Part shown: one piece after another, positions 148 to 15,541 of the stretch | How positions within the stretch are numbered: position 1 is the first letter of the stretch | Layout of the letters: each line of letters starts with the position of its first letter | Origin: a virus | Virus record (IMG/VR): IMGVR_UViG_3300010430_000433 | Span: 1 to 24,347 of that record | Length of the DNA stretch: 24,347 nucleotides | Strand: one strand, 5' to 3' | Notes under the pieces: model-generated | The model's database searches: none | Seen by the model: the letters and a program-made list of their open reading frames with translations, nothing else | What the model was told of the DNA's origin: nothing | Translations under genes and position numbers: made by a program

Positions 148-2943
148 ATGGCAACTTGGTTTTCAGCCTCTAATTTAACCCCTGCTGACCCCAATAGTCT
201 GCAAGAGGTAGTTCCCTTCGAGGGGGCTTACACAGATCTTGTAACCGGGGACAAGTGTCTTGTTACAGTCAACGGTGAGAACACCCGTATATACATTTAT
301 GATGAAACGAGTACTGAGTCTGAAGACTTCTTTCTGACAGTGGTAATACCAACAGCCAATGCAACAGGCACAGGTGCTTGGGTAGAGAAAAGAATCACAG
401 GTATCATGTCAGCCTTTCAGGGCACGATGGCTAATGAGTTTGACCTTACTGTATCAGAAGCCGGTGGTGTTGTTTCAGCCGACTTCGAAGCATCCGGTGG
501 AATACCGGGCTTAGGCATCTTCAACAACCAGTTCGTAACAGTACCAGTTCAATCGGTCACACTAACTGCTGGATCGGATGCAAGTCCCACACCAAACTAC
601 GTCCATATATTAGGATCAGACCCGACGAACCTTGCTGTATCTACGTCTAACTGGCCAACAGCCTTCCACATTAAGGTTGCTTTTTTACTCGTTCCGTCAG
701 CTGCTTATGTGGCTTCAGCCGGGCCTTACATTAACCAGAACTGGAACGATGGCAATCACGTTGGTGAAGAAGGTCACATACGACACATTGGTGAAGCCAT
801 AAGGCTGACCATGCAGGGTGCTACGTGGCACAGTGGTGTTGCTGCAAACGGTGCAACCGATGGGTACATCACCATCGATGCCGGTGACACACCGGATAGT
901 GTATACTTTCTATCCACTGCTGGAGTTGCTTATCAAATGCATCAGCACACTATTCCTGCAATCGATACCTCTGGAACTGATGACATTCATGTTGTTAATT
1001 CTTCAGTTGCTGCTTACAATTCGATACAAGATATCTCGGATGAGGTTGCTGATTCAACAGGAGGCTCACTAAACAATAAGTATTACAACGTTGTTATTGC
1101 TGGTGTGTGTAACAAGACAGGTGAGTATTCTCCCCTGCTTATGAACATGCCCTCCGGTTCGTACAATACAGCAACCGGTGCTATCAATGATACCAGTGGA
1201 TACGACGTATACGATCTGCCCCATGAGTTTGTTCAGGACAGTTGTACAGCCTTTCTGATTTGTCGAATTACCTTTCGAAACCAGGGTGGCAATCTTACAG
1301 TACAAAACACAACCGACCTTCGGGGTCGTACACCTGGCACTGCCTCTGGTTCAGTAATTGCCAGTGACGTAGAGTTCCCGGATAATCAATTCAGGATCTT
1401 CGACGAAGCAGACGACACAAGAGAAATAGCTTTCTCTGCCGACGGCATCACGACCGGGAACACCCGGACGATTACGATGCCTGATGCTGATACGACCCTG
1501 CTTACCCAGACTGAGGTCACCGACCTCACCGACGGTGGGAATACAGATCTCCATCAGCACGATACTCTGAATGAATCGGCTGGTGGTCTGGTGTCACTGT
1601 CTGCTGTGACAGACGGCATACTGGTTAGGGATACCAATGGTACGGACTCAAACGTCATCCTTACGAGTGACGGAGGTTCCTACCTTGCCAACTACAAAGC
1701 CACCAGTACATATGCTGCAATGCAGTTATACGTCAGTGGTTTTGAGAATGCTATTATTGCCAGACATAACGGTGCTGTCGAGTTGTACTACGATAATACG
1801 GCTGTGGCTAAGACTATTATATCCGGTACGGATTCTGGACTCAGTGTATATGACAGTGATAGTCAATATGGTCAGCTCTTGAAAGTCAACACAGGGATGC
1901 TGTTGCTCTATAACAGAGAGGTTAGTGGTCACGTAACATTGGCTGGCACTGACTCAGGTTCTGCTTACTCGGCTGTACTTGTTGGTGATCCTGATGATGC
2001 TATTCAATTGTTTTACAATGGCCTCAGAGCTCTTGCAACAACAGCTGTTGGAATAGATGTGTTTGATACTTCAGGTGGTGAGGCTAATATAATCTATAAA
2101 ACATCTGGTGGTGCTAAGATGGCTACCCTATTAGCCAACACGACATATGCACTACTCACACTTGGTACAAGTGCAGAGAATGCACTCAAAGCAACCCTCA
2201 ACGGTGCTGTCGAGTTGTATTACAATGATGCAGTGGCTCTTAAAACAGCTGCTGATGGTGTAGATGTTTTATCTGGCACCAACGACGATCCAGTCATAAG
2301 TCTGTATGAAGATGACGGTTCAACGTTAGTTGGAACTTTTAGGTCGAACGGTGCTTCTGACCTGTATATTACAAGTGAACGGAATGGTGGTGATGTCTGG
2401 ATATATGGTAAGGATGAAACAGGTACTGCAATGTGGGCCGGCATAGACGTTAGCTCCCCAGCTTTCAGGCCGAGTCCTGACAGCACTGTAAATCTGGGTA
2501 ACAGTTCATACTGTTGGTTAAACATATATGGTGATGCTGGAGTTACAAGTTGTTCTGACGAGAAGTATAAGAAGGACGTACAGCAAACAACACTCGGTCT
2601 GCAGTTTATCGACGACCTTGTACCGGTTGCTTTTAAGTTTAGAACCGACGGCCTACGGCCTAAGAATCATCACAGGTTCTATCAGGGCATGCTGGCTAAT
2701 GAGGTTGAAGCTGTTCTGCAGGATCACGGTCACACGTATGCTGACTTTGCTGGTCTGACAGAAGACTTCGACGATGAAGGTAACAGATGGTTAGGTTTGA
2801 AATATGAGCAGTTCATAGGCCCATTGATCAAAGCTACTCAACAGTTACATAGCAAAGTCAAAACTCAACGACAACGTATAATTGAATTGGAAACCCAGAT
2901 GACGGCCGTGCTTGCACGACTTGATGTTCTGGAAACAACATAA
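148..2943 (+). CDS. Tail fibre/spike protein with C-terminal S74-type intramolecular chaperone
   Basis: A 931-residue host-attachment fibre. Its start has a strong AAGGAG site 5 bases upstream. The N-terminal two thirds is rich in Thr, Gly, Asp and Ser. Residues about 425-470 contain a fibre-type segment (FRIFDEADDTREIAFSADG then TRTITMPDADTTL). Residues about 510-715 hold three degenerate repeats of roughly 70 residues built around NGAVELYYDN, IQLFYNG and NGAVELYYND, as expected of an intertwined trimeric beta fibre. From Cys802 the end reads CSDEKYKKDV and continues to a short C-terminal coiled coil (about 896-930). In the peptidase S74 family this domain folds the trimer and then cuts itself off at the Ser-Asp bond, here Ser803-Asp804. 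Family knowledge supports fibre plus autoprocessing; the receptor is unknown. Confidence 0.9.
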   Translation: MATWFSASNLTPADPNSLQEVVPFEGAYTDLVTGDKCLVTVNGENTRIYIYDETSTESEDFFLTVVIPTANATGTGAWVEKRITGIMSAFQGTMANEFDLTVSEAGGVVSADFEASGGIPGLGIFNNQFVTVPVQSVTLTAGSDASPTPNYVHILGSDPTNLAVSTSNWPTAFHIKVAFLLVPSAAYVASAGPYINQNWNDGNHVGEEGHIRHIGEAIRLTMQGATWHSGVAANGATDGYITIDAGDTPDSVYFLSTAGVAYQMHQHTIPAIDTSGTDDIHVVNSSVAAYNSIQDISDEVADSTGGSLNNKYYNVVIAGVCNKTGEYSPLLMNMPSGSYNTATGAINDTSGYDVYDLPHEFVQDSCTAFLICRITFRNQGGNLTVQNTTDLRGRTPGTASGSVIASDVEFPDNQFRIFDEADDTREIAFSADGITTGNTRTITMPDADTTLLTQTEVTDLTDGGNTDLHQHDTLNESAGGLVSLSAVTDGILVRDTNGTDSNVILTSDGGSYLANYKATSTYAAMQLYVSGFENAIIARHNGAVELYYDNTAVAKTIISGTDSGLSVYDSDSQYGQLLKVNTGMLLLYNREVSGHVTLAGTDSGSAYSAVLVGDPDDAIQLFYNGLRALATTAVGIDVFDTSGGEANIIYKTSGGAKMATLLANTTYALLTLGTSAENALKATLNGAVELYYNDAVALKTAADGVDVLSGTNDDPVISLYEDDGSTLVGTFRSNGASDLYITSERNGGDVWIYGKDETGTAMWAGIDVSSPAFRPSPDSTVNLGNSSYCWLNIYGDAGVTSCSDEKYKKDVQQTTLGLQFIDDLVPVAFKFRTDGLRPKNHHRFYQGMLANEVEAVLQDHGHTYADFAGLTEDFDDEGNRWLGLKYEQFIGPLIKATQQLHSKVKTQRQRIIELETQMTAVLARLDVLETT
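1680..2290 (+). repeat. Three degenerate ~70-residue repeats inside the fibre gene
   Basis: The protein pattern NGA-V-E-L-Y-Y-(D/N) followed by A-x-K-T and G-x-x-V recurs near 1768, 1999 and 2200. Copies one and three share 20 identical bases (1768-1787 and 2200-2219), while the middle copy is diverged (IQLFYNGLRALAT). The repeats lie just before the S74 domain and probably form repeated turns of the fibre shaft. Near-identical DNA in copies one and three could allow recombination that changes shaft length. Confidence 0.65.
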
Positions 2944-2952
2944 ACCCATAAC

Positions 2953-2972
2953 TAATTATGGAAGGATAATTA
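2953..2972 (+). promoter_or_regulatory. RBS hairpin with GGAAGG hexaloop (copy A)
   Basis: TAATTAT (2953-2959) pairs perfectly with ATAATTA (2966-2972) around a GGAAGG loop (2960-2965). AAGGA in the loop and its closing base is the Shine-Dalgarno element, 8 bases before the ATG at 2975. It has the same loop and same spacing as the hairpins before 3546 and 9641. Confidence 0.7.
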
Positions 2973-2974
2973 AA

Positions 2975-3151
2975 ATGGATGCAACCGTACAAGAAGTAAT
3001 CAACCAACTATTACAGCAGTTCACTCAGGAAGAGGCAGGTAACAAGGTCACTCGAAATAACATGCTCGGTCTATCAATGCAGATCGGGATGGCATTCGAG
3101 GGCAAGATCACTCTGCAGAAATCTGAGCCGAAGGCTGTCGAGGAGAAATAA
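2975..3151 (+). CDS. Small helical protein of unknown function (58 aa)
   Basis: A 58-residue protein starting MDATVQEVINQLLQQFTQEE. The frame is open further upstream, to an ATG at 2912 inside the fibre gene, but the ATG at 2975 is chosen because a GGAAGG ribosome-binding site lies 9 bases before it and the upstream ATG has none. Predicted to be mostly helical with a charged C-terminal tail (KSEPKAVEEK). It stands two genes before the large terminase, so a small-terminase or other packaging role is possible. It is shorter than usual small terminases and shows no clear DNA-binding motif. I do not recognise its family. Confidence 0.75.
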   Translation: MDATVQEVINQLLQQFTQEEAGNKVTRNNMLGLSMQIGMAFEGKITLQKSEPKAVEEK

Positions 3152-3154
3152 AAT

Positions 3155-3523
3155 ATGAAGCTTGAAATCGAATCAGGCAAGATTACCATTCAAGCTGATG
3201 CTTCCGACTGGGGGCCGTTCACCTTCGATCTCGAAGATGCAATGCCCTCAGGTCGTACGGTTGCCTCAGCTGTCGTCAAGACATACCTTGGCCGGGTAAA
3301 GCCGGCTGACTCTGACGACTTGTCCAGTGAGACTGAAACGACATCCGAGTTGATCAATACCAACTCAATGTCCAGTGACTACATTGTGGCAGTGTACTTC
3401 GATAGACCGACCACTGCTGCTTACATTAACAAAAAACACTCGATGGTGATTACGTTTACTTTGGATGCCTCCGGTGGGGGTGGAACCCACTCAGCATTCT
3501 TTTATGCCATTGAAGTTATATAA
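3155..3523 (+). CDS. Hypothetical beta-rich protein upstream of terminase (122 aa)
   Basis: A 122-residue protein starting MKLEIESGKITIQ, with AGGAG at 3141-3145 inside the end of the previous gene. The gene begins 3 bases after that gene's stop, so the two are probably translationally coupled. The sequence alternates hydrophobic and polar residues (ITIQAD, FTFDLED, YIVAVYFD, MVITFTLDASGGGG), suggesting a small beta-sandwich. No catalytic or DNA-binding motif is visible. Position beside the terminase suggests a virion or packaging accessory protein, but I cannot name a family. Confidence 0.75.
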   Translation: MKLEIESGKITIQADASDWGPFTFDLEDAMPSGRTVASAVVKTYLGRVKPADSDDLSSETETTSELINTNSMSSDYIVAVYFDRPTTAAYINKKHSMVITFTLDASGGGGTHSAFFYAIEVI

Positions 3524-3547
3524 TTAGGATGGAAGGATTTTAATTAT
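3520..3547 (+). promoter_or_regulatory. RBS hairpin with GGAAGG hexaloop (copy B)
   Basis: Bases 3520-3530 (ATAATTAGGAT) pair with 3537-3547 (ATTTTAATTAT) around the GGAAGG loop at 3531-3536. The 11-bp stem includes two G-U pairs (3527-3540, 3528-3539), which pair only as RNA. The stem contains the stop codon of the 122-aa gene on one side and the AT of the terminase start codon on the other. The first loop G is 15 bases before the ATG, as in copies A and C. Confidence 0.7.
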
Positions 3548-5069
3548 GGTAGACTTTTCTTTAGACTATACGGCCAACAATACATTTGCACAGGTGCATC
3601 AAGACCCGAACAAATATATATTCATAAGAGGTTCAGTTGGATCAGGTAAATCCTCTGGATGTATTCTGCACATTTTTCTGAATGCAATGAAACAGGCACC
3701 GGATCTTAACGGCATACGAAAGTCGAAGTATGCAATCCTCCGGGCATCGTATCCTAACTTAAAGTCAACCACGATTGACTCTTGGGTCAACGATTGGTTT
3801 GGCCCAACCATCGAAATCGTTTATGATATCCCCATCCGGGGAACGGTCCATATGAACCACCCGGATGGTAAGACAACGATCGAAATGAAGCTTATCTTCC
3901 TTGCACTTGACCGAGAAGAAGACGTCAACAAGCTGCAATCATTACAGATTAATGGTGCTCACTTGAACGAAACAGCTGAGATCCCGAGAGGGGTTTATCA
4001 GATGCTGAAGTCTCGAATCAACCGTTACCCCAAGAAGTTTGGGATTGACAAGGTCCACCCGGATTACCGGGATGAGTACCGGCCCTTCCTGAACAAGCAT
4101 GGAAAGATCGAATCGATCGAACCTTTTATCATTCACGACTACAACTCGATCCCGACCGAACATTGGCTATATCAAATAGCCGAAGAAGAAAAGCCTGACA
4201 ACCATAGCTTTTATGTACAACCCTCAGCCCTGCTTATGACATCTAAGCAGAAAGGCTTTGTCCATGATGCTGAGGAAAACTGGTACATGATCAACCCACT
4301 GGCTGACAACCTGGAGAATCTATCCGAGGATTATTATGTTGATCAGGTTCAGGGTGCTGATCCAGAATGGATCTCAGTTTTCGTGCTAAACAATTATGGT
4401 AACCTCAGAGCAGGAAAACCTGTATACAAGATGTATGACGACCGTGCTCATTACACGGACAGGCCTTTCGAGGTATCGAAGGGTATACCCATTGTTATAG
4501 GAATGGATACAGGTCTGACTCCAGCTGCAGCTTTTACTCAGTTCACATCTTCGGGGCAATTCGTTTGTTTCGATGAGTTAGTTTCAGAAGACTGTTCGAT
4601 CAACGAATTTGCCCACGACATATTGTGGCCTCATTTAAGAAACAACTATAGAGGATACGACTTTAGAATAGTCCTTGACCCGGAGAACAAGAGAGCCCAG
4701 ACCGATAAGAGAACGGCAAGGGACATACTCATCAAGGCCGGGCTGCCGGTGACATTAGGTAGGACCAATAACGTAGCTCAGAGATTTGAGTCTGTCGTTT
4801 ACTTCTTAAGAAAGAAGGATGGTTTCTATGTAACGTCGGCTTGCCCAGTGCTGAGAAAAGGATTCTTATCTGAGTTCAAGTTTGACAAAGTGTCAACAAC
4901 AGTCAAGGGAACCAAATGGAAAGAGAAGCCTGAAAAGAATATCTACTCCCATATCCATGAAGCTTTACAGTATGCTGCCATGGAATTTGTTGAAGGTAAG
5001 ATGTTTGCTAAGAATACGGCTAAGAGACAAAAATATACTACACCGGCCGACTCCGTTGCCGGGTACTAA
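3546..5069 (+). CDS. terL: Terminase large subunit (packaging ATPase-nuclease)
   Basis: A 507-residue motor that pumps DNA through the portal and cuts it. The N-terminal ATPase has a Walker A motif GSVGSGKS at residues 29-36 and the segment INGAHLNETAEIPRGV, with Asn141-Glu142 in the position of the catalytic acid found in podovirus terminases. The C-terminal RNase H-like nuclease is shown by GMDTG (Asp321), VLDPEN (Asp378) and the final SHIHEALQYAAMEF near residue 469, where an Asp is more common than His. Length is normal for the family. The gene follows the GGAAGG hairpin and ends 10 bases before the portal gene, the classic terminase-portal order. No small terminase is recognisable nearby. 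Confidence 0.95.
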   Translation: MVDFSLDYTANNTFAQVHQDPNKYIFIRGSVGSGKSSGCILHIFLNAMKQAPDLNGIRKSKYAILRASYPNLKSTTIDSWVNDWFGPTIEIVYDIPIRGTVHMNHPDGKTTIEMKLIFLALDREEDVNKLQSLQINGAHLNETAEIPRGVYQMLKSRINRYPKKFGIDKVHPDYRDEYRPFLNKHGKIESIEPFIIHDYNSIPTEHWLYQIAEEEKPDNHSFYVQPSALLMTSKQKGFVHDAEENWYMINPLADNLENLSEDYYVDQVQGADPEWISVFVLNNYGNLRAGKPVYKMYDDRAHYTDRPFEVSKGIPIVIGMDTGLTPAAAFTQFTSSGQFVCFDELVSEDCSINEFAHDILWPHLRNNYRGYDFRIVLDPENKRAQTDKRTARDILIKAGLPVTLGRTNNVAQRFESVVYFLRKKDGFYVTSACPVLRKGFLSEFKFDKVSTTVKGTKWKEKPEKNIYSHIHEALQYAAMEFVEGKMFAKNTAKRQKYTTPADSVAGY

Positions 5070-5079
5070 GGAATAAACA

Positions 5080-7140
5080 ATGGATGAATACAATGACACT
5101 TTCGACCAGATAAAGGACCATAAGGATGACAGTGAGTCTGGGGTCAACAGGATCCCAGCCATGAGCTTGGCACCCTTTCAATCTGACATAGGTACTGCCC
5201 TCCATGCAGAGTGGCAGGAAGCAGAATCAGGAAAGCTGTTTGATGAACGTCGGTTTGTCCGATCACTCAGACAGTATCGTGGTCAGTACGATCCTGAAGT
5301 TAAAGCAAAGATCCACCCGAACCGATCAAAAGCTTTTATCCGGTTGACCCGTACCAAAGTTAAAACCTATGATGCCCGGATGATGGACATCAAGTTTCCA
5401 TCAAACGAAGACAAGGACTGGTCTATCCAACCTACTCCAGTTCCTGACCTTAACCCCCAGCTTATAGAAGACATTGCCGGCCAGATGTTCGAACAGAACG
5501 GTGGTGTGATGCCGACGGCTGCCGAGGTAAAGGACGTTGTCTACAAGCAAGCCGAGGAAATGGCACAGGGTATGGAGATGGAAATAGCCGACCAGCTGGA
5601 TGAGTTCGATTACAGAACAGTGATAAGAAATGTGGTACACTCAGGTCACGTGTATGGAACAGGTATCCTGAAGGGGCCACAGGTCAAGATCATCACCCAG
5701 AAACGTTGGCATAAAGTCGGTGACACTTGGAAGCAGGTCAATATTAAAAGGATGATCCCGACGGCCCAGTGGGTCTCAGTCTGGGATATCTACCCTGACA
5801 TGTCTGCCAAGAGAATCAAGGATGCCAGGTATATTTGGCAAAAGCATCTGTTCAGTAAGAACAATCTTTATAAGCTGTCCCTTCGAGACGACTTCGATGG
5901 TGATGCTATCAAAGCTTTCATGGATGCTTACAAAGACGGTAATGCCGTATACAAACAATATGAGCAGGACTTCCGTGAAATGTCCTCAAACTCTGAGTCT
6001 GACGGAGACACCAGTCCCCCGAAGAAAGAGAAGTATGAGGTCCACGAACGGTGGGGCTACATGGATATCGACCAGGCCAAGGATCTTATTCCAGGCCAGT
6101 CCGAAGATATGTGGAATGCAATGGGACCGGAGGTTGCTTGCAACGTCTGGTTGATTGACGGTATAATCATCAAGGCTATCGTAAGCCCCGTCGAGGGTGC
6201 TGAGATACCTTACTACTTTTATTACTTCGACAAAGACGAGACCAGTATCTTCGGTGACGGTATCCCTGAGATAATGAGAGATCCCCAACAGCTTTACAAT
6301 GCAAGTATCCGAGCCATGCTTGACAATGCTGCTATAGCTGCTGGACCCATTATCGAGGCAAACATAGACCTCTTGGCTGATGGAGAGGATCCCACGGAGT
6401 TGTTTCCGTTCAGGGTTTTCCAGAGGATAGGATCAGGCATCGATGCAAACACCCAGGCAATTCGAGTTACGAAGTTACCTTCTTATACAAACGAGTTCCT
6501 GAATCTGGTTCAGTTCTTCCAGCAATCAGCCGACGAATCTACAACTATCCCGAGAGCAATGTCAGGGATGGATGAGATGCAGGGTGCTGCTGCAAAGACA
6601 GCTACGGGCATGTCCATGCTTATGGGTGCTGCCAACATTACCTTGAAAGATCAGGTCCACTTCTTTGATGAAGGTCTGACCCGACCGTTTATAAAATCAA
6701 TGTATTTCTGGAACATGGAGTTCAACGTCAAAGAGCAGATCAAGGGAGACTTCAATATCGTAGCCCGAGGCTCTAAGTCTTTGATTGCCAAGGAAGTAAA
6801 GATGGAGCAGATCAATCAGTTCCTTTCCTTGACGTCCAATGAGTACGACCAGAAGTATATCAAACGTGACGTCTTGTTACGTGAATTGTCAGAGGTGTTC
6901 GACCTCGATAAGCTTGGCTTCATTAGAACTGCTGCTGAAGTGGAGAAGATGGAACAGGGCATGGCTGAATCTGAGAAACGAAATCAGGATCAAGAGATGC
7001 TCATTAAGGCCATGGAGGCTGAGTCGTCTGGTCATGTACCAGATGCAGTCGAGAGAACAATTCAGATGTTCAACATTCAACTTCCGGGAGGGGGAACTCC
7101 GACAGGGAATCAGGAGGTTCAGGATAAGCTAAATGTCTAA
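5080..7140 (+). CDS. Portal protein
   Basis: A 686-residue dodecameric portal forming the DNA channel at one capsid vertex. Evidence: position directly after the terminase, size within the podovirus portal range, and typical segments TYDARMMDIKFP near residue 90, WVSVWDIYPDMSA around residues 231-243 and SIFGDGIPEIMRDPQQLYNA from about residue 389. The segment SADESTTIPRAMSGM and a charged helical C-terminus also fit. TAAGGA at 5067-5072, overlapping the terminase stop, is the ribosome-binding site. The last 8 bases overlap the next gene, indicating coupling. The exact portal subfamily is not certain. Confidence 0.9.
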   Translation: MDEYNDTFDQIKDHKDDSESGVNRIPAMSLAPFQSDIGTALHAEWQEAESGKLFDERRFVRSLRQYRGQYDPEVKAKIHPNRSKAFIRLTRTKVKTYDARMMDIKFPSNEDKDWSIQPTPVPDLNPQLIEDIAGQMFEQNGGVMPTAAEVKDVVYKQAEEMAQGMEMEIADQLDEFDYRTVIRNVVHSGHVYGTGILKGPQVKIITQKRWHKVGDTWKQVNIKRMIPTAQWVSVWDIYPDMSAKRIKDARYIWQKHLFSKNNLYKLSLRDDFDGDAIKAFMDAYKDGNAVYKQYEQDFREMSSNSESDGDTSPPKKEKYEVHERWGYMDIDQAKDLIPGQSEDMWNAMGPEVACNVWLIDGIIIKAIVSPVEGAEIPYYFYYFDKDETSIFGDGIPEIMRDPQQLYNASIRAMLDNAAIAAGPIIEANIDLLADGEDPTELFPFRVFQRIGSGIDANTQAIRVTKLPSYTNEFLNLVQFFQQSADESTTIPRAMSGMDEMQGAAAKTATGMSMLMGAANITLKDQVHFFDEGLTRPFIKSMYFWNMEFNVKEQIKGDFNIVARGSKSLIAKEVKMEQINQFLSLTSNEYDQKYIKRDVLLRELSEVFDLDKLGFIRTAAEVEKMEQGMAESEKRNQDQEMLIKAMEAESSGHVPDAVERTIQMFNIQLPGGGTPTGNQEVQDKLNV

Positions 7141-7372
7141 ACTTTCAGAAACACAATACCTTAACAACCTACGAAGCTATACAGAAGGGAAGACGTACAT
7201 CAACCTCATAGGTCTGCTGAACTGCAGGCTTGAGATACTGAAGACATCCCTTCTTACAGCTGAGGGTTTAGAGGTACAAAAAATTCAAGGTCAGGCCAAG
7301 GAGATAACTCATCTTCTAAAGAGCCTGACAAGAAAGCCCATGACCCAGCAACATACAGGGGCTTTTAATTAG
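7133..7372 (+). CDS. Small helical protein between portal and scaffold (79 aa)
   Basis: A 79-residue protein starting MSKLSETQYLNNLRSY, whose ATG lies inside the end of the portal gene. AGGAT at 7121-7125 is a plausible ribosome-binding site. The centre is amphipathic helix with LEVQKIQGQAKEITHLLKSL. Small proteins with a Q-G-x-A helix are common just after portal genes in podoviruses, but their role is not established and I give none. Possibly a head-assembly accessory. Confidence 0.75.
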   Translation: MSKLSETQYLNNLRSYTEGKTYINLIGLLNCRLEILKTSLLTAEGLEVQKIQGQAKEITHLLKSLTRKPMTQQHTGAFN

Positions 7373-7454
7373 GACGTTCGACCGGTCGACACCGACACCG
7401 AGTACCTAACTTTATAAATTCGGGATATCCATTATGGACCCCAAAGGAGGCAGT
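7373..7454 (+). promoter_or_regulatory. Palindrome-rich gap before scaffold/capsid genes
   Basis: This 82-base gap is one of only two sizeable gaps in the window. It holds a perfect 12-bp palindrome TCGACCGGTCGA (7378-7389), two tandem CGACAC copies (7387-7398), the palindromes TTTATAAA (7411-7418) and GGATATCC (7423-7430), and a TATAAA that could serve as a -10 box. No convincing -35 box is seen at normal spacing. It could be a promoter or operator region for the highly expressed scaffold-capsid pair; this is inference. Confidence 0.35.
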
Positions 7455-8429
7455 ATGCCTAAAGACAGTATAGATGAATTACAGGAAGGTAGAGCCAAAG
7501 ATCGACAGGAGTTCGAGGATGCATTCAATGACGTTCTCGGGAGTACTCCTGAAGAAGTTGAAAAAAAGCTAAAGGAAGAAGCTGAAGCCGAAGCTTCTGC
7601 TGGGGCAGGGGATGCCCAAGGAGAGCAGAAGAATGAAGCCGATGGTTCCAATTATGCTTTTGGAAAACAGCAGGAAGAAGGCACCGACCCGAAGCCGGCC
7701 GTAGAGCCCGTACCGGATACCAGTGCTCAAGGAACCGATTGGCAAGCCAAAGCATCACAGCTTGAGGCTGACCTTGCTAAGGAGAAACAACGTACGGCAT
7801 CTTGGGATGGTCGAATCAAATCGGCCAACGAGAAAACAAAGAAACTCGAAGATCAGATTGCAGTACTCCTGAAAGACCGGGAGGAAAAGCAGTCGGCCAA
7901 GACAGCTAAGCAAGACCTTGACGACACAGAAAAGATGGACCTGTTCAAGGAAAACTTCCCAGAGTTGGCAGACTTTGCTGACATCCTGCAACGTAGGATG
8001 GATGGCTTTCAGTCACCAGCCCCGGCTAAGGTGGACCCCGAGCCAGAGTCCAAACCCAGTGAAGAGGAAGCCCCGGCCAAGGCTGAACCTACTGGTCCTT
8101 CTGATCACTACCTTGCTATTACGAAGATCCACCCCGAACTTGACGAGATCGTCAACAGTGGAAAACTCCTTTCATGGATCAACCAACAGGCTGATTACAT
8201 CCGACCACATCTATCGAAGGTGTACAATGGTGGCACAGCTGATGAAGTTATCTCAGTGGTCACTGAATTCAAAAACAAAACCGGATGGACGTCTTCCGTA
8301 TCGACTCCCAATCCGAAGCAGGACAAGCTCAACAGCATGCTCGAAGCTGACGGTGAGAGCCCCGGACCCAAGTCTGATGGCCCTGACAAGAATGACTTTG
8401 CTGGCACTGCTAAGAGTATAGGCCTGTAA
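7455..8429 (+). CDS. Capsid scaffolding protein
   Basis: A 324-residue acidic, low-complexity protein directly before the capsid gene. I choose the ATG at 7455 (MPKDSIDELQ) because AAAGGAGG at 7443-7450 precedes it; the in-frame ATG at 7434 has no such site. Composition is dominated by Glu, Lys, Ala and Asp. A long coiled-coil segment (WQAKASQLEADLAKEKQ through LEDQIAVLLKDREEK) lies at about residues 95-150, followed by a Pro/Glu-rich linker and a folded C-terminal part. Scaffolds of tailed phages have this make-up and position; they shape the procapsid and leave before or during packaging. The identification rests on context and composition, not on a catalytic motif. Confidence 0.8.
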   Translation: MPKDSIDELQEGRAKDRQEFEDAFNDVLGSTPEEVEKKLKEEAEAEASAGAGDAQGEQKNEADGSNYAFGKQQEEGTDPKPAVEPVPDTSAQGTDWQAKASQLEADLAKEKQRTASWDGRIKSANEKTKKLEDQIAVLLKDREEKQSAKTAKQDLDDTEKMDLFKENFPELADFADILQRRMDGFQSPAPAKVDPEPESKPSEEEAPAKAEPTGPSDHYLAITKIHPELDEIVNSGKLLSWINQQADYIRPHLSKVYNGGTADEVISVVTEFKNKTGWTSSVSTPNPKQDKLNSMLEADGESPGPKSDGPDKNDFAGTAKSIGL

Positions 8430-8446
8430 TAATCTGTAGGAGATTA
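8430..8446 (+). promoter_or_regulatory. Hairpin presenting the capsid gene RBS
   Basis: TAATCT (8430-8435) pairs with AGATTA (8441-8446) around a GTAGG loop (8436-8440). The Shine-Dalgarno AGGAG begins in the loop and runs into the 3' stem. It follows the scaffold stop directly and ends 5 bases before the capsid ATG. It is a shorter, looser relative of the GGAAGG hairpins and could affect capsid translation. Confidence 0.45.
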
Positions 8447-8451
8447 CAATA

Positions 8452-9561
8452 ATGGGTACAACAACTTATGGTGATATTACTCCCCGTACGGCTGCTTACG
8501 TAGTCAAAGACCTTCTGAAAAGAGGGATGCCTTATCTGGTATTCGAGAAGTTTGGTCAGTCCAAACCGTTGCCGGCTAACAGCACAAAAACCATCGAGTT
8601 CCGTCGGTACTTCCTTGAGAAGACCTTCACCATTCCTTCTGGAAACGTGATGTTCAACCCCCAGGAATACTTCAACGACGTAGAAGACGATGCTGATACA
8701 TGGTCTACAGCTCAGGATTTCATGAATCCGTCCAGCCGAACTCTGACAGAGGGAACAACTCCTGATGCAACAGAGATCGATTCTCAGGACTACGAAGCCA
8801 CACTGACTCAGTATGGTGATCGTGTTGTGATTACTGACGTCATCATGGACACCCATGAAGACAACGTCCTCCGTGAGGCCGTTGACATTCTTGGTGAGCA
8901 GGCTGCCGTACTTATCGAAAAAACTCGTTTCAACGTCCTGAAGGCTTGTGCCAACGTTGTGTATTCTGACACAGCTGACACAGCTCGTAACGAAGTTGAC
9001 AAGGCTTTCAGCCTGCTGATGCAGAGACGGATTACCCGTTTTCTGAAACGTCAGCTTGCCAAGCCCATCACATCCATCGTAAAGAGCACACCGGCTTACG
9101 GAACAGAAGCCATTGCTCCTTCATTCATCTGTATCGTTCACCCCGACATGGAGTCCGACCTTAGGGCCGTTGCTTCTTTCGTGCCTTGTGAAAAATACGG
9201 TTCGATGACACCTTACGAAAACGAGCTTGGTAAGATTGAAGACGTCCGTTACCTGACCTCTACAATCGTTCAGCCGTTCTATGCAACAGGTGCAGCCGTT
9301 GGTGCAACCGGTATGGTTGCTGCTGACTCCACCAACTTGGACGTATACCCGATGATCTACCTGGCACGTGATGCTTACGGCATCGTGGCTTTCAAGGGTG
9401 CAAACTCCTTGACCCCGATGGTAGTGAATCCTCATGCTTCTGACTCAGATCCTCTGGCACAGAGAGGGCATGTAGGTTGGAAGGGCTACTCTGCTACCAT
9501 TATACTCAATGACTTTTGGATGGTACGTGGTGAAGCTGCAGTCTCTGACCTTGCCAGCTAA
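8452..9561 (+). CDS. Major capsid protein, N4-gp56 family
   Basis: A 369-residue shell protein. The N-terminus (YGDITPRTAAYVVKDLLKRG, then LVFEKFG and KPLPANSTKTIEFRRYF) matches the N4-gp56 capsid family, as do the following TLTEGTTPD, LTQYGDRVVITDVIMDTHED and LREAVDILGEQAAVLIEKTR segments. The C-terminal part ends with LAQRGHVGWKGYSATIILND, also typical. The length is close to other family members. It lies 22 bases after the scaffold gene and is followed by a terminator-like hairpin, as expected for a very highly expressed gene. The family adopts the HK97-like fold. Confidence 0.93.
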   Translation: MGTTTYGDITPRTAAYVVKDLLKRGMPYLVFEKFGQSKPLPANSTKTIEFRRYFLEKTFTIPSGNVMFNPQEYFNDVEDDADTWSTAQDFMNPSSRTLTEGTTPDATEIDSQDYEATLTQYGDRVVITDVIMDTHEDNVLREAVDILGEQAAVLIEKTRFNVLKACANVVYSDTADTARNEVDKAFSLLMQRRITRFLKRQLAKPITSIVKSTPAYGTEAIAPSFICIVHPDMESDLRAVASFVPCEKYGSMTPYENELGKIEDVRYLTSTIVQPFYATGAAVGATGMVAADSTNLDVYPMIYLARDAYGIVAFKGANSLTPMVVNPHASDSDPLAQRGHVGWKGYSATIILNDFWMVRGEAAVSDLAS

Positions 9562-9574
9562 GAAGTACTTTAGC
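9557..9574 (+). promoter_or_regulatory. Small hairpin over the capsid stop codon
   Basis: GCTAAG (9557-9562) can pair with TTTAGC (9569-9574; five Watson-Crick pairs plus one G-U) over a 6-base loop. The capsid stop TAA (9559-9561) lies in the 5' arm. It is the first of three hairpins in a row (also 9585-9606 and 9617-9640) and may help stabilise or end the capsid message. Confidence 0.35.
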
Positions 9575-9584
9575 ATATAGCTTT

Positions 9585-9614
9585 AGCCCCCGGCTTAAAG
9601 GGGGCTCACTTTTA
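9585..9614 (+). terminator. Terminator-like hairpin after the capsid gene
   Basis: AGCCCCC (9585-9591) pairs perfectly with GGGGGCT (9600-9606) around an 8-base loop, followed by CAC and TTTT (9610-9613). The GC-rich stem and short T-run fit an intrinsic terminator, though the T-run is short and offset by three bases. The downstream genes are in the same direction with no obvious promoter, so it is probably leaky and sets capsid transcripts above downstream ones. Confidence 0.65.
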
Positions 9615-9616
9615 AC

Positions 9617-9640
9617 TTTAAATATGGAAGGATATTTAAA
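9617..9640 (+). promoter_or_regulatory. RBS hairpin with GGAAGG hexaloop (copy C)
   Basis: TTTAAATAT (9617-9625) pairs perfectly with ATATTTAAA (9632-9640) around a GGAAGG loop (9626-9631). The stem ends on the base before the ATG at 9641. Loop sequence, closing U-A pair and 15-base distance from loop to ATG are identical to copies A and B, while the outer stem sequence differs. Confidence 0.75.
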
Positions 9641-10201
9641 ATGTCAACATCAAAAAAGCCCAACTACATGACAATGAAGGTCGAAGAACTCGAAAAGATT
9701 ATGGAAGGTTACAGTATGGACAAGGCAACATTCACACAAGAGAATGGTAGCCTGAACCGTAAGATGGTAGCAGACATGATTAAGATCATCGATGTTCAAG
9801 TCGGCAAAGTAAAAGAGGTTATCGTGCAGGATGAGAAGGGTAACGTGGAAACCCACAGCCCAGTTCGAAAGATCAACGGCACGGCACTCTCTGGAATGAT
9901 GGTCGAGATCGAATTCTTTAACATGAGTGAGAACGACCTGCCTTATGTCCAGCTTGGTTTACAGGGAACAGCTCTTACAATCCCGAGGGAAGTTAAGGTC
10001 TGGATACCGAAAGAATTTCTTGACGGCTGCCTTAAGCACACGGTCACGACCATGCTTAAGATGGTGGTCAACCGAGAAACCGGCAAGATCCGGTATGAAC
10101 CGAAACAGGTGCCACGGTTTCAATACACCGTGCATGATATTATGCATATCGATGAGCTCAAGAAACTGGCCGTCGAAGGCAAGGGAAAAATCAACCGTTA
10201 A
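9641..10201 (+). CDS. Unknown virion-region protein between capsid and adaptors (186 aa)
   Basis: A 186-residue protein starting MSTSKKPNYMTMKVEELEK, translated from the GGAAGG hairpin. The first 60 residues look helical; the centre (GTALSGMMVEIEFFNMSEND, LGLQGTALTIPREVKVWIP) looks like beta structure with an Ile-Pro-Arg turn, then a further helical end (HDIMHIDELKKLAVEGKGK). No signal peptide or catalytic motif is seen. Position between capsid and head-tail adaptors suggests a head or neck component. I do not recognise a family. Confidence 0.75.
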   Translation: MSTSKKPNYMTMKVEELEKIMEGYSMDKATFTQENGSLNRKMVADMIKIIDVQVGKVKEVIVQDEKGNVETHSPVRKINGTALSGMMVEIEFFNMSENDLPYVQLGLQGTALTIPREVKVWIPKEFLDGCLKHTVTTMLKMVVNRETGKIRYEPKQVPRFQYTVHDIMHIDELKKLAVEGKGKINR

Positions 10202-10216
10202 TAAAGGAGAACAACA

Positions 10217-10867
10217 TTGTCTTTCACAGCATTGAACTATATAGAAGATGCTGCTGAACTATACTCCGATACTGCTTACGACAGAATATCAACGACGACG
10301 TGGATCAAATATCTCAATGCTGCTTTGAGAACATTGGTCCTCGTACGTCCTGATGCTGGAGCAGTCACAGAGTCCGTTCAGTTGGTATCCGGGATTAAAC
10401 AAAGCATTCCCACGGCAGCCTTAAGACTGCTTGACATACCACGTAACATGGGGTCGGACGGGTCCACTGCTGGAAAGATCATCACCCCGTCAAAGAGAAA
10501 ACACATTGACTATTCCAATTTACTGTGGCCTCAGGATACTGGGGAAACGTACATTGAGAACTTTTCACACGATCCAAATACACCCGACATCTTTTATGTT
10601 ACACCTCCTGTGATCTCGACCACTGACGTTTACGTTGAGATGTCAAGCTCACAGCTACCTACGACTATAACAGCCACCGGAGACTCGGTGTCTACAAATG
10701 ATATCTACTTCGAGCCTGTCGTTCAGTACATGCTGTACAAAGCATATGCTGCTGACGATGAGGGAGTTGAATTCCAGAAGGCCGAAGCTATGTTCAACAA
10801 ATTTTTAAACCTTCTGAACGTCGAAGCCAAAGCTGCAACGGCTCTCGGCCCAGAACCGAAGGAGTAA
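10217..10867 (+). CDS. Head-tail adaptor protein 1 (podovirus connector, DUF6682-like)
   Basis: A 216-residue connector starting at TTG (10217), supported by AAAGGAG at 10203-10209 with 7 bases of spacing. Segments typical of podovirus adaptors: an N-terminal helix pair with WIKYLNAALRTLVLVRPDA, the strand pair VQLVSGIKQSIPTAALRLLD followed by IPRNMG, then FYVTPPV and a C-terminal helical VQYMLYKAYAADDEG. Proteins of this type dock under the portal. The DUF6682 assignment comes from motif memory and is moderately sure. It is followed after 3 bases by a second adaptor. Confidence 0.75.
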   Translation: MSFTALNYIEDAAELYSDTAYDRISTTTWIKYLNAALRTLVLVRPDAGAVTESVQLVSGIKQSIPTAALRLLDIPRNMGSDGSTAGKIITPSKRKHIDYSNLLWPQDTGETYIENFSHDPNTPDIFYVTPPVISTTDVYVEMSSSQLPTTITATGDSVSTNDIYFEPVVQYMLYKAYAADDEGVEFQKAEAMFNKFLNLLNVEAKAATALGPEPKE

Positions 10868-11590: not shown

Positions 11591-12567
11591 CATTCAGCAA
11601 TAATGGCTCTACGACTTTGAATGGTGGGATCAATGACTCCACCACATCAGTCGTCGTGACAGCCACAGCATCCTTCCCGACAGTTGGTGGTGGTGATTAC
11701 TTCTATGCCACACTAATTAAGCAGGACGGAACAAGAGAGATCGTGAAATGTACGTCACTCTCTTCTCAAACATATACCGTTGTCCGTGGTGCAGACGGCT
11801 CGACCCCGGCAGCATTCTCATCTGGTGACCGTTTTCAACTACGGTGCCCGTCAATCGTCCTCGAAGAGTTCAGGGATGATATTGCAACAAATGCAACGGA
11901 CCTTGCAGGAACAACCAATGCAGGGACCGTGCCGGCCCCTTCTGGAACAAATATGTTTTTCTATCAGGCAGCTGCCCCGACCAACTGGACAATCTATACG
12001 ACAGTGGAAGACTGTCTCTTGTCAGTTAAGGGTGGATCGAATGCCTACAATATTGCCGGTGGAACCGGAGCAGAAGCAGGTGCAGCTTGGGGAACATTTG
12101 GTGCCCATGTCCACGGCATGAACAGTCATACACATGGCTTTGCTCATACTCATGGACAGGCAGCTCATATCCATACGATGCCAACACATTGGCATACACT
12201 AAGTGCTCATACTCATACCGGCCCATCCCATGATCATACGTTTAGTGATTCATTTGTTACTGGACAGGAGTCTGCTGGATCAGCAGATGCTGATGGTTCG
12301 GGAGACGACTTTGCCAAGGACAACCATACACATAGTGGTTCTGTAAGTGGTACCACAGGTGCAGATGGAACTGGGAACACAGGTGTCCCGAGCTCAGACT
12401 GGACCAACACCAAAGATCCTGGAGATACCAATCCAACGGATGCTGGCTCAACGAACAGTCAGAGTGCCCCGGCCACGGATGCCAGTGTTGTCGACACCGA
12501 GAGTGCAGCACCTGGATCAACCGACCGGCCGTTGGCTGCCGTCGGTATCTTAGCAACGAAGGACTAA
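11581..12567 (+). CDS. Short tail fibre/tip protein with seven HxH metal-binding motifs
   Basis: A 328-residue fibre. Residues 1-95 form a small beta domain containing VVRGADGSTPAAFSSGDRF. Residues about 122-165 resemble a phage tail collar-like domain (MFFYQAAAPTNWT, GGSNAYNIAGGTGAEAG). Residues 176-219 carry seven HxH motifs (HVH, HTH, HTH, HIH, HWH, HTH, HDH) spaced 7, 6, 7, 7, 7 and 7 residues apart, with an eighth at 249-251. In T4 gp37 such motifs hold a line of iron ions in the core of a trimeric needle, so this stretch is probably a metal-stabilised trimeric needle. The C-terminal 75 residues are rich in Gly, Thr, Ser, Asp and Pro. The gene starts within the end of the adaptor gene. 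Confidence 0.85.
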   Translation: MGIAFSNNGSTTLNGGINDSTTSVVVTATASFPTVGGGDYFYATLIKQDGTREIVKCTSLSSQTYTVVRGADGSTPAAFSSGDRFQLRCPSIVLEEFRDDIATNATDLAGTTNAGTVPAPSGTNMFFYQAAAPTNWTIYTTVEDCLLSVKGGSNAYNIAGGTGAEAGAAWGTFGAHVHGMNSHTHGFAHTHGQAAHIHTMPTHWHTLSAHTHTGPSHDHTFSDSFVTGQESAGSADADGSGDDFAKDNHTHSGSVSGTTGADGTGNTGVPSSDWTNTKDPGDTNPTDAGSTNSQSAPATDASVVDTESAAPGSTDRPLAAVGILATKD

Positions 12568-12570
12568 TAC

Positions 12571-12906
12571 TTGAAATACCTACTATCTATGGTGCAGGCT
12601 TTATTGCTGTGCTCATGTACAGTGCTCTCAGGACAACGTGAACTGTTGCCCGAGGTAATAAAGCCTACACCATTAGATCAGGTTGACATAACTATAACGG
12701 AGATGGGATACTTAGAAGCAGGATGGACATGCCTGGCTAATGCCGACATGCCAAAGTTTCTACATCCCATCGTAGTTCAAGTGTTCGGATGCTCAGATGT
12801 GTACACAAAGAACGGGAGGGTGGTCAGGTGTGACGTCATACTTGGCACCAGCTCAGCATACATCAGAGACCACGAACTTAAACACTGTGAAGGATACACA
12901 GACTAA
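12571..12906 (+). CDS. Candidate lipoprotein with HELKHCEG zincin signature
   Basis: A 111-residue protein starting at TTG (12571) with GAAGGA 7 bases upstream. The N-terminus MKYLLSMVQALLLCSCTVLS reads as a short signal peptide with an approximate lipobox (LCSC, Cys16), suggesting export and lipid attachment. The C-terminal DHELKHCEGYTD contains HExxHxxG, a zinc-binding metallopeptidase signature; His102, Glu103 and His106 would be the catalytic set. Two Cys in VFGCSDVYTKNGRVVRCDV could form a disulfide outside the cytoplasm. It lies among tail genes, so it may be a virion or exported protein acting on the envelope. An outer-membrane spanin is an alternative, but the metal motif speaks against that. 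Confidence 0.7.
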   Translation: MKYLLSMVQALLLCSCTVLSGQRELLPEVIKPTPLDQVDITITEMGYLEAGWTCLANADMPKFLHPIVVQVFGCSDVYTKNGRVVRCDVILGTSSAYIRDHELKHCEGYTD

Positions 12907-12926
12907 AAGTGATGGGGGAAACTATC

Positions 12927-13238
12927 ATGGCTCAAAGATCAGATACGTGTCACGAGAAATGTCCGTTCTGGAAAAAATACAAAAAGAATTGCCCCAACTT
13001 CGTTGAGGGTGAATGGAGAACAATGGAAGGGCACACGTACAAAACGTTTGACTGTGCCCCCAAACGTTCAATGATATTGTGTCAGCAGGTTTACGATCAC
13101 ATGATTGACGTCCGTAAGGATTATAATCAGGTACGGAATGTTGCCGGCCAGTTGATGGAAACCGTTGCCCGACAGGCAAATATGGACGTCCTCATAACAG
13201 ACGGAGACGTGGAGGATGCAAAACTAATTGAGGAGTAA
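12927..13238 (+). CDS. Small Cys-cluster protein, function unknown (103 aa)
   Basis: A 103-residue protein starting MAQRSDTCHEKCPFWKKYKK. The ATG at 12927 is chosen because GGGGGA lies 7 bases upstream; an in-frame GTG at 12909 is also open. The N-terminus has Cys-x3-Cys-x9-Cys (CHEKCPFWKKYKKNC) and later DCAPKRSMILCQQ, which together could bind one zinc ion. The rest is helical and acidic. Small proteins with a similar Cys cluster and a CAPKR motif occur in tail regions of other podoviruses, but I know no function. Its stop is 2 bases before the next gene. Confidence 0.75.
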   Translation: MAQRSDTCHEKCPFWKKYKKNCPNFVEGEWRTMEGHTYKTFDCAPKRSMILCQQVYDHMIDVRKDYNQVRNVAGQLMETVARQANMDVLITDGDVEDAKLIEE

Positions 13239-13240
13239 AC

Positions 13241-15541
13241 ATGAAAATTCAAGTTAATGAGTTCACCGGGATCATGCCCAAGATGGCAAACGATAAGTTA
13301 TCCCCGGACATGGGTCAGACCATGCAGGATGTAAAGACCTCCTCTAAAGAGTTGGTGCCGTATAAAAGATCCTTGAGTGACGTGGCCTTGGCCGGCAGCT
13401 CATATAAAACTTTGTTTGAATATTTATATAGCAGCACTTCGAGTTGGTGCTATTTTGATAGGGTCGTACACTGGGCACGAAGTCCAGTGGCTGATGATTC
13501 CTATGAGAGACTTTACCATACCGGTGGGCCGGCTACTAAAGCTCAGGGCACCGTAACATTTTTAGACTCGATCACTGATGGAGAGACTGTAACTATTGGG
13601 GCCGATACTTATGAGTTTGATATTGCCGACGACGGAGTCGGAGGTGGCAACATCGATACAGGCTCGTCTGCCACGACCACAGCTATCTTGGCCGGTGCTG
13701 CTTTGACCACAGCTATAACAGACAGTGCAACAGAGCCGGTCACGGCAACTGACAACGGAGACGGAACAGTTCTCGTTGAATATGACACAGCTGGTACTGC
13801 TGGCAATGCAATAGCCTTCTCAAACACTGGTACCAAAGTGTCGACCGACACATACGGTGACACGTCTTTCCTTGGTGGAACTCAGGAAGGTTGTGATGCC
13901 AACACGTACCGGGCATATGCAAACGATCTCGTGAGCTCTCCTTTTGATATGGACAACGATGTCTATTATCCGGGAGCAGACTCAGGAGCTGCACCTACCA
14001 TCGTACCTGATGCCAGTGCTGGTGATTATGTAGCATATTTCTACACCTACGTTTCAAAGTACGGTGAGGAAGGTCCACCGAGTACAGTGGCTGAGTCTGC
14101 CTTGGCAACCGACGACGGACGTAATAATATTGATAGCTTCACCTATCCCACTGATAACCATCTCATAGATGGTACTGGAGCTGCAGAGCCCTACGTCAAA
14201 CTTTACCGGACGGTAACCGACGGTCAAGGCAATGCTTTATTCTTGCACATCCTTGATGCTTACTGGGTAGACAGCACCACAACATACACCGTTGGACAGT
14301 ATGTACTTTCTGATGACGGTGGTGGATGGGATCTCTTTGAGTGTACAGTTCAAGGAACATGGGCTGCCGGCACATTTGACCAGGGAGAAAACGTTCTGGC
14401 TGCCAGTCTCACTGGAGACGTCTGCCCGAGCATTTATTATGACCGGGCCGTCGACGGGATGACAAACCTAAGGGCTCACCCTAATGGTTTTTTCGTAGCT
14501 TCAAAAGGCAATATGCTTTACTTTAGTGAACCATTTGCCCCGTGGGCCTGGCCCGAGGATTACAGGATACCACTGGATGCTCAGGTCGTAGGCATAGGTA
14601 TTTTTGGTTCGACCATCGTTGTTGCAACGGATGCCTGGGTCTACACATTTGCTGGACCACACCCCAGCTCGTTATATAAAACGAAGCTGTCTTTTCAACC
14701 TTGCCTTGCTCAGAGAGCCCTGGTTGAAACGGATGAGGGTGTGATGTTTCCCTCACTCGAAGGGTTTCAACTCGTAAATGCTTCTGGTGTTACCAACGTC
14801 ACTCAGGATCTATTTGACCCTGAAGACTGGGCAGACTTTGAGCTCGGTGATTCTCATGGTGCCTACTATAATAAATCATACTACGGTTTCTTCAAGTCCT
14901 CGGACTACGAAGGGAACTTCAGAATTGACTTTATTAATGGTGCTATCACGACAGGTAATGATTATCATTATGCTGCATACGTAGCACTTGAGGACGGGAT
15001 CTTCAGAACGATATTCTACTCAGACCTATCTGCAGTGAACACGTTGAACATATGCCGGTGGGATGCAAGCCCCTATGCTTACAGGAACTTCACATATAAA
15101 AGCCCTCGGTATATTACTGAGAAGCTTGTGAACTTTAAAGTCTGTCAGATTATTATTGACTCGGAGTTTTATGCTGATCTGCTGGAGACCATTGGAGACG
15201 ATGATGCTCTGGAAGATTTGAATCAGACCGAGTGGGATAAACTGGCAGCTGGTAACAACTGGGGTGCTGGTGATCTCGAAGGTCCACTGAATGAGTTCCT
15301 ACTGGATATGCAGGAAGTCAACGGTGACACCCTGTACAGTCTCACGAACTCTGGAGCTCAGAGTTACATTGACTTCAGGCTATATGCTGACAGTGTATTG
15401 AAGTTTACCAAGCAGGTATCCAACAGTACAATGTTCAAACTCCCCCGTGGGTTCCGTGCTAAGAAGTGGCACTTCGAAGTGTCAGGTCAAATCCCGGTTA
15501 AACGGATAACCCTGGCAACAAGTACAGAGGAGATTGCATAA
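13241..15541 (+). CDS. Large podovirus tail protein (tail hub/nozzle-type)
   Basis: A 766-residue protein with GAGGAG 6 bases before its ATG. The N-terminus (MKIQVNEFTGIMPKMANDKL) is the form seen in large podovirus tail proteins. The core from about residue 220 has YFYTYVSKYGEEGPPST and KLYRTVTDG, then AHPNGFFVASKGNMLYFSEP, IGIFGSTIVVATDAWVYTF and FPSLEGFQLVNASGVTNVT, resembling beta-propeller-like blades. Residues about 102-216 form a separate repeat-rich beta domain (VTIGADTYEF ... AGTAGNAIAF ... FLGGTQEG) inserted into this framework, of a kind found as accessory domains in many phage structural proteins. The C-terminus (FRAKKWHFEVSGQIPVKRIT) is also characteristic. It probably forms the lower tail tube or hub. 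Confidence 0.8.
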   Translation: MKIQVNEFTGIMPKMANDKLSPDMGQTMQDVKTSSKELVPYKRSLSDVALAGSSYKTLFEYLYSSTSSWCYFDRVVHWARSPVADDSYERLYHTGGPATKAQGTVTFLDSITDGETVTIGADTYEFDIADDGVGGGNIDTGSSATTTAILAGAALTTAITDSATEPVTATDNGDGTVLVEYDTAGTAGNAIAFSNTGTKVSTDTYGDTSFLGGTQEGCDANTYRAYANDLVSSPFDMDNDVYYPGADSGAAPTIVPDASAGDYVAYFYTYVSKYGEEGPPSTVAESALATDDGRNNIDSFTYPTDNHLIDGTGAAEPYVKLYRTVTDGQGNALFLHILDAYWVDSTTTYTVGQYVLSDDGGGWDLFECTVQGTWAAGTFDQGENVLAASLTGDVCPSIYYDRAVDGMTNLRAHPNGFFVASKGNMLYFSEPFAPWAWPEDYRIPLDAQVVGIGIFGSTIVVATDAWVYTFAGPHPSSLYKTKLSFQPCLAQRALVETDEGVMFPSLEGFQLVNASGVTNVTQDLFDPEDWADFELGDSHGAYYNKSYYGFFKSSDYEGNFRIDFINGAITTGNDYHYAAYVALEDGIFRTIFYSDLSAVNTLNICRWDASPYAYRNFTYKSPRYITEKLVNFKVCQIIIDSEFYADLLETIGDDDALEDLNQTEWDKLAAGNNWGAGDLEGPLNEFLLDMQEVNGDTLYSLTNSGAQSYIDFRLYADSVLKFTKQVSNSTMFKLPRGFRAKKWHFEVSGQIPVKRITLATSTEEIA

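Follow-up and report, generated by a model that had tools for sequence, protein, structure and literature searches.

The window analysed here, meaning the whole stretch of DNA under study, is a 24.3-kb IMG/VR virus record (24,347 nucleotides) whose late genes follow the order of a podovirus-like phage. A tail spike gene (148-2943) is followed by a 58-aa ORF without a family match (p58; 2975-3151, plus strand), a 122-aa ORF (p122; start at 3155), the gene of the terminase large subunit (terL; 3546-5069, plus strand; phrog_2, E=1.9e-20), an SU10-type portal gene (start at 5080), a putative scaffold gene (start at 7452), the major capsid protein gene (8452-9561, plus strand; phrog_1357, E=3e-54), a gene for a protein of 186 aa with no confident family assignment, which we call the post-capsid gene (9641-10201, plus strand), and an SU10-type adaptor gene (start at 10217), after which come further structural genes. 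A very large ORF begins at 18250 and stays open to the end of the window at 24347; it has no Pfam match, and a 3132-aa protein occupies the matching place in a 41-kb relative (G007, locus L153). The early region of this relative, on the strand opposite to its late genes, has genes for RtcB (an RNA ligase), for another member of the RNA-ligase family that carries a PHA02142 OB-fold domain and for a DNA polymerase A (L153:4490-5617, 8864-9994 and 12028-14157), besides a tRNA-Ser(gct) (641-726); together these are a set for RNA repair in the phage clade to which the relative belongs.

The post-capsid protein of the window and its relatives shares a conserved N-terminal helical motif, ELxxLxEKYxLDKxDY...GSLNRKKL, which by eye resembles a small SAP/HeH-type module and has no database match. 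Its structural model, of low confidence (mean pLDDT 68, pTM 0.43), places a short N-terminal helical region before a beta-rich core, and gave no usable match in the PDB or the BFVD.

In front of p58, terL and the post-capsid gene, the Shine-Dalgarno (SD) sequence is found in the same six-base loop of a plus-strand hairpin. Copy A (TAATTAT-GGAAGG-ATAATTA, 2953-2972, loop 2960-2965) has a stem of 7 bp and precedes the ATG of p58 at 2975. Copy B, (TATAATTAGGAT)-GGAAGG-(ATTTTAATTATG), spans 3519-3548 with its loop at 3531-3536; its stem of 11 bp, or 12 when a terminal U-G is counted, includes two adjacent G-U pairs, and the start codon of terL (3546) lies inside its 3' arm. Copy C, TTTAAATAT-GGAAGG-ATATTTAAA (9617-9640, loop 9626-9631), has 9 bp and abuts the ATG at 9641. 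The original prediction had described three GGAAGG hairpins with stems of 7, 11 and 9 bp, two G-U pairs in copy B and the first G of the loop 15 nt before the ATG, and each of these points can be read directly from the window, the distance being 15 nt in 3/3 copies. Between the capsid gene and copy C there is also a hairpin with a T run, AGCCCCCGGCTTAAAGGGGGCT...TTTT (9585-9615, plus strand), which is terminator-like and at which, from its sequence, we infer that transcription would terminate. Nearly all relatives have a GC-rich, terminator-like hairpin 3' of the capsid gene, and its sequence and stem vary among phages; the post-capsid hairpin lies directly behind it, often with YTAACT on its 5' side.

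The window contains 17 GGAAGG hexamers, 14 on the plus strand and 3 on the minus strand; copies A, B and C are flanked by stems of 7, 12 and 9 bp and the other 14 hexamers by 0-2 bp. The original prediction had proposed comparison with shuffled sequence, and stems this long are not reproduced when the arms are shuffled (P = 0.0010, 0.0005 and 0.0005 for copies A, B and C). No partner hairpin with a complementary CCUUCC loop and a stem of at least 5 bp exists on the coding strand of the window. By thermodynamics alone, each hairpin of the window is weak, copy B having a predicted dG of -6.7 kcal/mol. The predicted minimum-energy fold in a 60-nt context includes copies B and C; copy A faces a competing CCCAUAAC...UUAUGG fold (window 2941-2972), which is predicted to be more stable and to dominate over it. 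This competing fold would pair the first two Gs of the copy A loop, and it is possibly a second conformation of the region. Given the weak energies and the competing fold of copy A, the case for the element rests on covariation and not on folding energy.

The relatives considered here form a clade of uncultured tailed phages, defined as IMG/VR records, themselves fragments of genomes, whose TerL is 72% identical or more. Searching IMG/VR with TerL returned 30 contigs (74-89% identity). One more clade member (L044, 72%) came from a profile search, together with outgroups at 45-56%, and profile searches with the post-capsid and capsid proteins contributed about 20 more clade loci and some 50 outgroups. 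A stem-enclosed GGRAGG precedes the ATG at all 21 terL starts readable in the clade, and the hairpin is present at 26 of 27 post-capsid loci, the sole exception being a distant outgroup (L084, 40% identity) with an extra gene inserted after the capsid gene. The 41-kb relative, which reaches the early region, carries the post-capsid copy only; its sequence stops a little upstream of the post-capsid gene and so would not be expected to include a terL copy. Of the eight copies of p58 tested, four have the hairpin (the window, L004, L009 and L013). The three genes named in the original prediction are therefore correctly identified as those served in the window, but p58 is not a core target of the element.

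Outside the clade (TerL up to 56% and post-capsid protein up to 43% identical), none of the 16 terL and 26 post-capsid candidate starts has GGAAGG, some of these starts being uncertain, and the outgroup starts that were examined have ordinary SDs, which indicates that the element arose, or became fixed, inside the clade. Named relatives in INPHARED have TerL proteins of 22-35% identity, and the element is absent from the five that were searched. A scan of genome contigs for a host or prophage did not find a relative.

A covariance model of the hairpin (R1) scores copies A and C at 31.9 and 32.6 bits, and across the clade loci it retrieves terL, post-capsid and p58 starts only. The model is short: an unrelated record gave chance matches of up to 21-22.5 bits, compared with 23-33 bits at true sites, so that matches below about 23 bits are not believed. 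A Vibrio phage among the INPHARED relatives gave one match of 15.6 bits, far under the scores of true sites. Scans of IMG/VR for the exact patterns of three specific hairpins returned the terL and post-capsid sites of the clade and two further matches. One of these is a single sequence within an HNH gene, seen in L057 and L059, which we judged to be a chance occurrence. The other is CTAGAT-GGAAGG-ATCTAG at a gene start in an unrelated phage contig of 54% GC (L157, minus strand near 1216-1241), which we judged to be either a chance match or a case of convergence, that is, an independent use of the same hairpin.

The comparison of 45 distinct copies separates what is fixed in the element from what is free. 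The loop reads GGAAGG in 44 copies and GGGAGG in one, and the closing pair (pair 1) is U-A in 45/45, giving an invariant block UGGAAGGA. Pairs 2, 3 and 4 can form in 45/45, 45/45 and 43/45 copies, with 3-6 standard pair types. In the first 34 distinct sites, which were selected by a GGRAGG upstream of a gene with their stems ignored, these pairs form in 34, 34 and 32 copies, and shuffling predicts 18, 15 and 14.5. The covariation score is 0.712, compared with 0.192 +/- 0.028 for shuffled alignments, none of which reached the observed value in 500 trials, and structures in which the pairing is slid by 1 to 3 positions in either direction score 0.172 or less. Since pair 1 never varies, covariation cannot prove it.

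The substitutions were also placed on protein trees. On the TerL tree, pairs 2, 3 and 4 changed their pair state at least 6, 6 and 9 times, with 21/21 copies paired; on the post-capsid tree they did so at least 9, 12 and 11 times, with 26/26, 26/26 and 24/26 copies paired. As lower bounds, the totals are at least 21 and at least 32 changes, respectively, and on these trees the stem is rebuilt many times by paired mutations. In some copies the helix continues beyond a bulge or mismatch, as in L024 (GTTTA-C-GAT / ATCTAAAC) and in L033. The arms differ even among the copies of one genome (the window, L006), so the arms themselves are not a recognised sequence. Judged by this pattern of substitutions, a hairpin RNA structure is under selection, with its loop and closing U-A fixed and the sequence of its arms free.

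The hairpin is also specific with respect to the genes that carry it. SD-region stems of at least 4 bp occur at 20/20 terL and 21/22 post-capsid starts; the corresponding values are 6/19 for portal, 6/18 for capsid, 2/10 for adaptor and 5/19 for p122, and the starts of these four genes have no loop in common. The capsid gene, with its ordinary SD, serves as a control within the operon. At the capsid start of the window, TAATCTGTAGGAGATTA (8430-8452) places the SD in a short stem that is not conserved among relatives. The hexamers TCTCAT and CTTTCG, which also rank high for stems, were rejected as candidates, as they represent mostly one homologous coding position each and not independent sites. 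As far as comparison among relatives can establish it, the element is a clade-specific, cis-acting mRNA element placed over the ribosome-binding sites of terL and the post-capsid gene.

The identity of the pairs indicates the nucleic acid in which the hairpin acts. A G-U pair can form only in coding-strand RNA (or coding-strand ssDNA), and an A-C on the coding strand corresponds to a G-T on the template strand. At pairs 2-6 we counted 10 G-U and 0 A-C cells, with 17.8 and 11.9 expected from shuffled columns; the presence of G-U and the absence of A-C identify the element as coding-strand RNA and not DNA. The distance from the end of the loop to the ATG is mostly 8-12 nt, and the relation between hairpin, SD and start codon is fixed. 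The original prediction had suggested selection on RNA structure and had pointed to the flanks in related phages as the place to look; the flanks are paired, and the covariation in dozens of relatives, the G-U pairs without A-C and the restriction to the same genes strongly support that suggestion.

Predicted hairpin energies centre on -3.8 kcal/mol for terL, -4.0 for post-capsid and -3.1 for p58 copies. Stems with G-C pairs have 3-9 bp, mostly 4-6, and stems made of AU pairs only have mostly 9-10; the Spearman correlation between the G-C content near the loop and stem length is -0.76, uncorrected for phylogeny. Short GC-containing stems and long AU-only stems both lead to a stability near -4 kcal/mol, and this trade-off between length and composition is what would be expected from selection for a marginally stable hairpin.

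We consider that the hairpin is a translational operator, as the original prediction had suggested, with a probability of roughly one half: a trans-acting factor would read the loop and set the access of ribosomes to the TerL and post-capsid messages. The marginally stable hairpin (about -4 kcal/mol) would display the SD within the invariant U-GGAAGG-A loop, and an invariant loop on a stem free in sequence and tuned in stability would be the signature of an operator read by an RNA-binding factor, encoded by the phage or by its host. With the factor bound, the stem would be locked and the 3' arm, which is the spacer between SD and start codon, would be double-stranded and exclude ribosomes; with the factor absent, the weak hairpin would melt and the exposed AAGGA would permit initiation. 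Such an operator would coordinate the production of these two proteins with respect to the capsid genes that lie in between. The coat-protein hairpins of MS2 and PP7 are phage translational operators, and small hairpins with a conserved loop and a sequence-tolerant stem near a phage start codon are common to them, to the gene 43 operator and to the element described here, which is likewise a conserved-loop RNA hairpin at or near the start codon. The gene 43 hairpin of T4 and RB69 lies about 40 nt upstream and has a UAAC loop (PMC3014915). In the present element, in contrast, the loop is the SD itself, and one and the same hairpin is used at two or three late genes.

A serious rival, which the original prediction had also offered and which we think less probable, is that the hairpin presents the SD with no dedicated regulator, holding it in an open loop insulated from neighbouring sequence, or acting as a ribosome docking or standby site that fixes the initiation rate, so that the stems drift and pairing alone is selected. 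This would likewise predict a conserved stem with the SD in its loop, and it agrees with the uniformly modest stability, with the position of AAGGA in the loop at a normal distance from the ATG, and with the predicted ensembles, whose loops have a median probability of being unpaired of 0.98 for terL and 0.90 for post-capsid. In local context the helix, too, is mostly formed, though not in all copies. Mere presentation of the SD leaves unexplained, however, the six fixed bases of the loop, the invariant 5' GG, the U-A closing all 45 copies, and why only two or three genes have the hairpin, when capsid and portal also need good initiation and yet have plain SDs. Moreover, initiation should be hindered, not helped, by a 3' arm that lies over the spacer and, in the case of copy B, over the start codon as well. 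The 5' GG of the loop is invariant although AAGGA suffices as an SD, and this points to recognition beyond pairing with the 16S rRNA. For these reasons we prefer the operator; that the loop is fixed, that the stem is free yet tuned and that the hairpin lies over the ribosome-binding sites of the same two genes all speak for its being recognised by something.

It is doubtful that the reader of the loop is CsrA/RsmA of the host, or a CsrA-like protein, which would bind the GGA and repress or time the translation of late genes. The SELEX consensus of CsrA has A and C where the phage loop has an invariant G and G, and no phage-borne CsrA was found in a search of 14 records from the clade or close to it. 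AAGGA is present in 44/45 copies (GAGGA in L004), but its final A closes the covarying helix, and the motif would be wholly looped, inside an octaloop, only if the unproven U-A pair were open. Nor do the copies form the canonical apical hexaloop ANGGAN (CANGGANG): GGAAGG is enclosed in all of them, the A of GGA being the invariant closing base, and sliding the register by 1 to 3 positions makes the covariation collapse. CsrA sites are nonetheless, by analogy, the closest known precedent for the phage hairpin. The hairpins of CsrA, RsmA and RsmE share with it an AAGGA over the SD, a stem backed by compensatory changes and free arms, whereas the phage element has a register shifted by two bases (GGAAGG, not ANGGAN), an invariant 5' GG and U-A, and a place at phage late genes. 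Of 328 CsrA co-IP peaks in C. jejuni, 276 contained an AAGGA motif in a hairpin loop, and the flaA leader of Campylobacter has an AAGGA hexaloop over the ribosome-binding site, with compensatory changes (PMC4894983). The statement of the original prediction that no element of this form had been described holds for Rfam 15, whose covariance models gave 0 matches in the whole window at E up to 1, and for the open-licence papers searched, in which an element of the same form was not found; it had overlooked these CsrA sites as a close formal analogue (PMC4894983). We do not file the element as a CsrA site because its register is not the canonical ANGGAN and because an invariant GG lies 5' of AAGGA.

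We give very little credence to the loop being an endoribonuclease or processing site, at which a RegB-like nuclease of the phage or host would inactivate messages at a set time. T4 RegB does cut GGAG in SD sequences and, without S1, requires GGA to be unpaired, the fourth base being partly constrained; its sites lie in early genes and are A-rich on their 3' side, and structure is inhibitory (PMC3014915). The likeness is that a purine-rich SD is targeted by phage post-transcriptional control, but here GGAAGG is held in a conserved hairpin at late structural genes, and GGAG is missing from most copies, the AU class reading GGAU. Least probable of all is a DNA-level element, either a cruciform or ssDNA hairpin promoter of the N4 virion RNA polymerase type or a palindromic protein site: N4-like phages do have small fixed-loop hairpin promoters before their genes, and N4-like podoviruses have capsid and portal proteins of the same families, but those promoters are template-strand ssDNA with a short loop at early genes and predict the opposite of the coding-strand bias seen here, in which G-U is tolerated and A-C never occurs, the arms are unconstrained in sequence, and the relation to ATG and SD is fixed. 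A scan of 10 proteins from the early region of the 41-kb relative recognised no RNA polymerase.

Returning to the translational operator, we propose tentatively, and with less confidence than for the operator itself, that a dedicated and probably phage-encoded RNA-binding protein would recognise the invariant loop and co-repress the packaging ATPase and the post-capsid protein, thereby coordinating head assembly with packaging at the post-transcriptional level. No RNA-binding family was found in p58, p122 or the post-capsid protein.

The control of the structural (late) genes of tailed dsDNA phages is usually ascribed to transcription and operon order, and, to our knowledge, strongly covarying RNA elements at phage late-gene start codons have rarely been reported. 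Being short, placed at non-homologous genes, built around a fixed loop that is the SD, and flanked by clean outgroups without it, the element offers an easily testable case for the translational control of packaging. It also illustrates that a plain annotation of a ribosome-binding site can mask a regulatory structure, and the hairpin could serve directly as bait in the search for a new RNA-binding protein. If the loop is indeed read by a dedicated RNA-binding protein, these phages would possess an undescribed regulatory system in which the SD itself is the recognition sequence of the protein.
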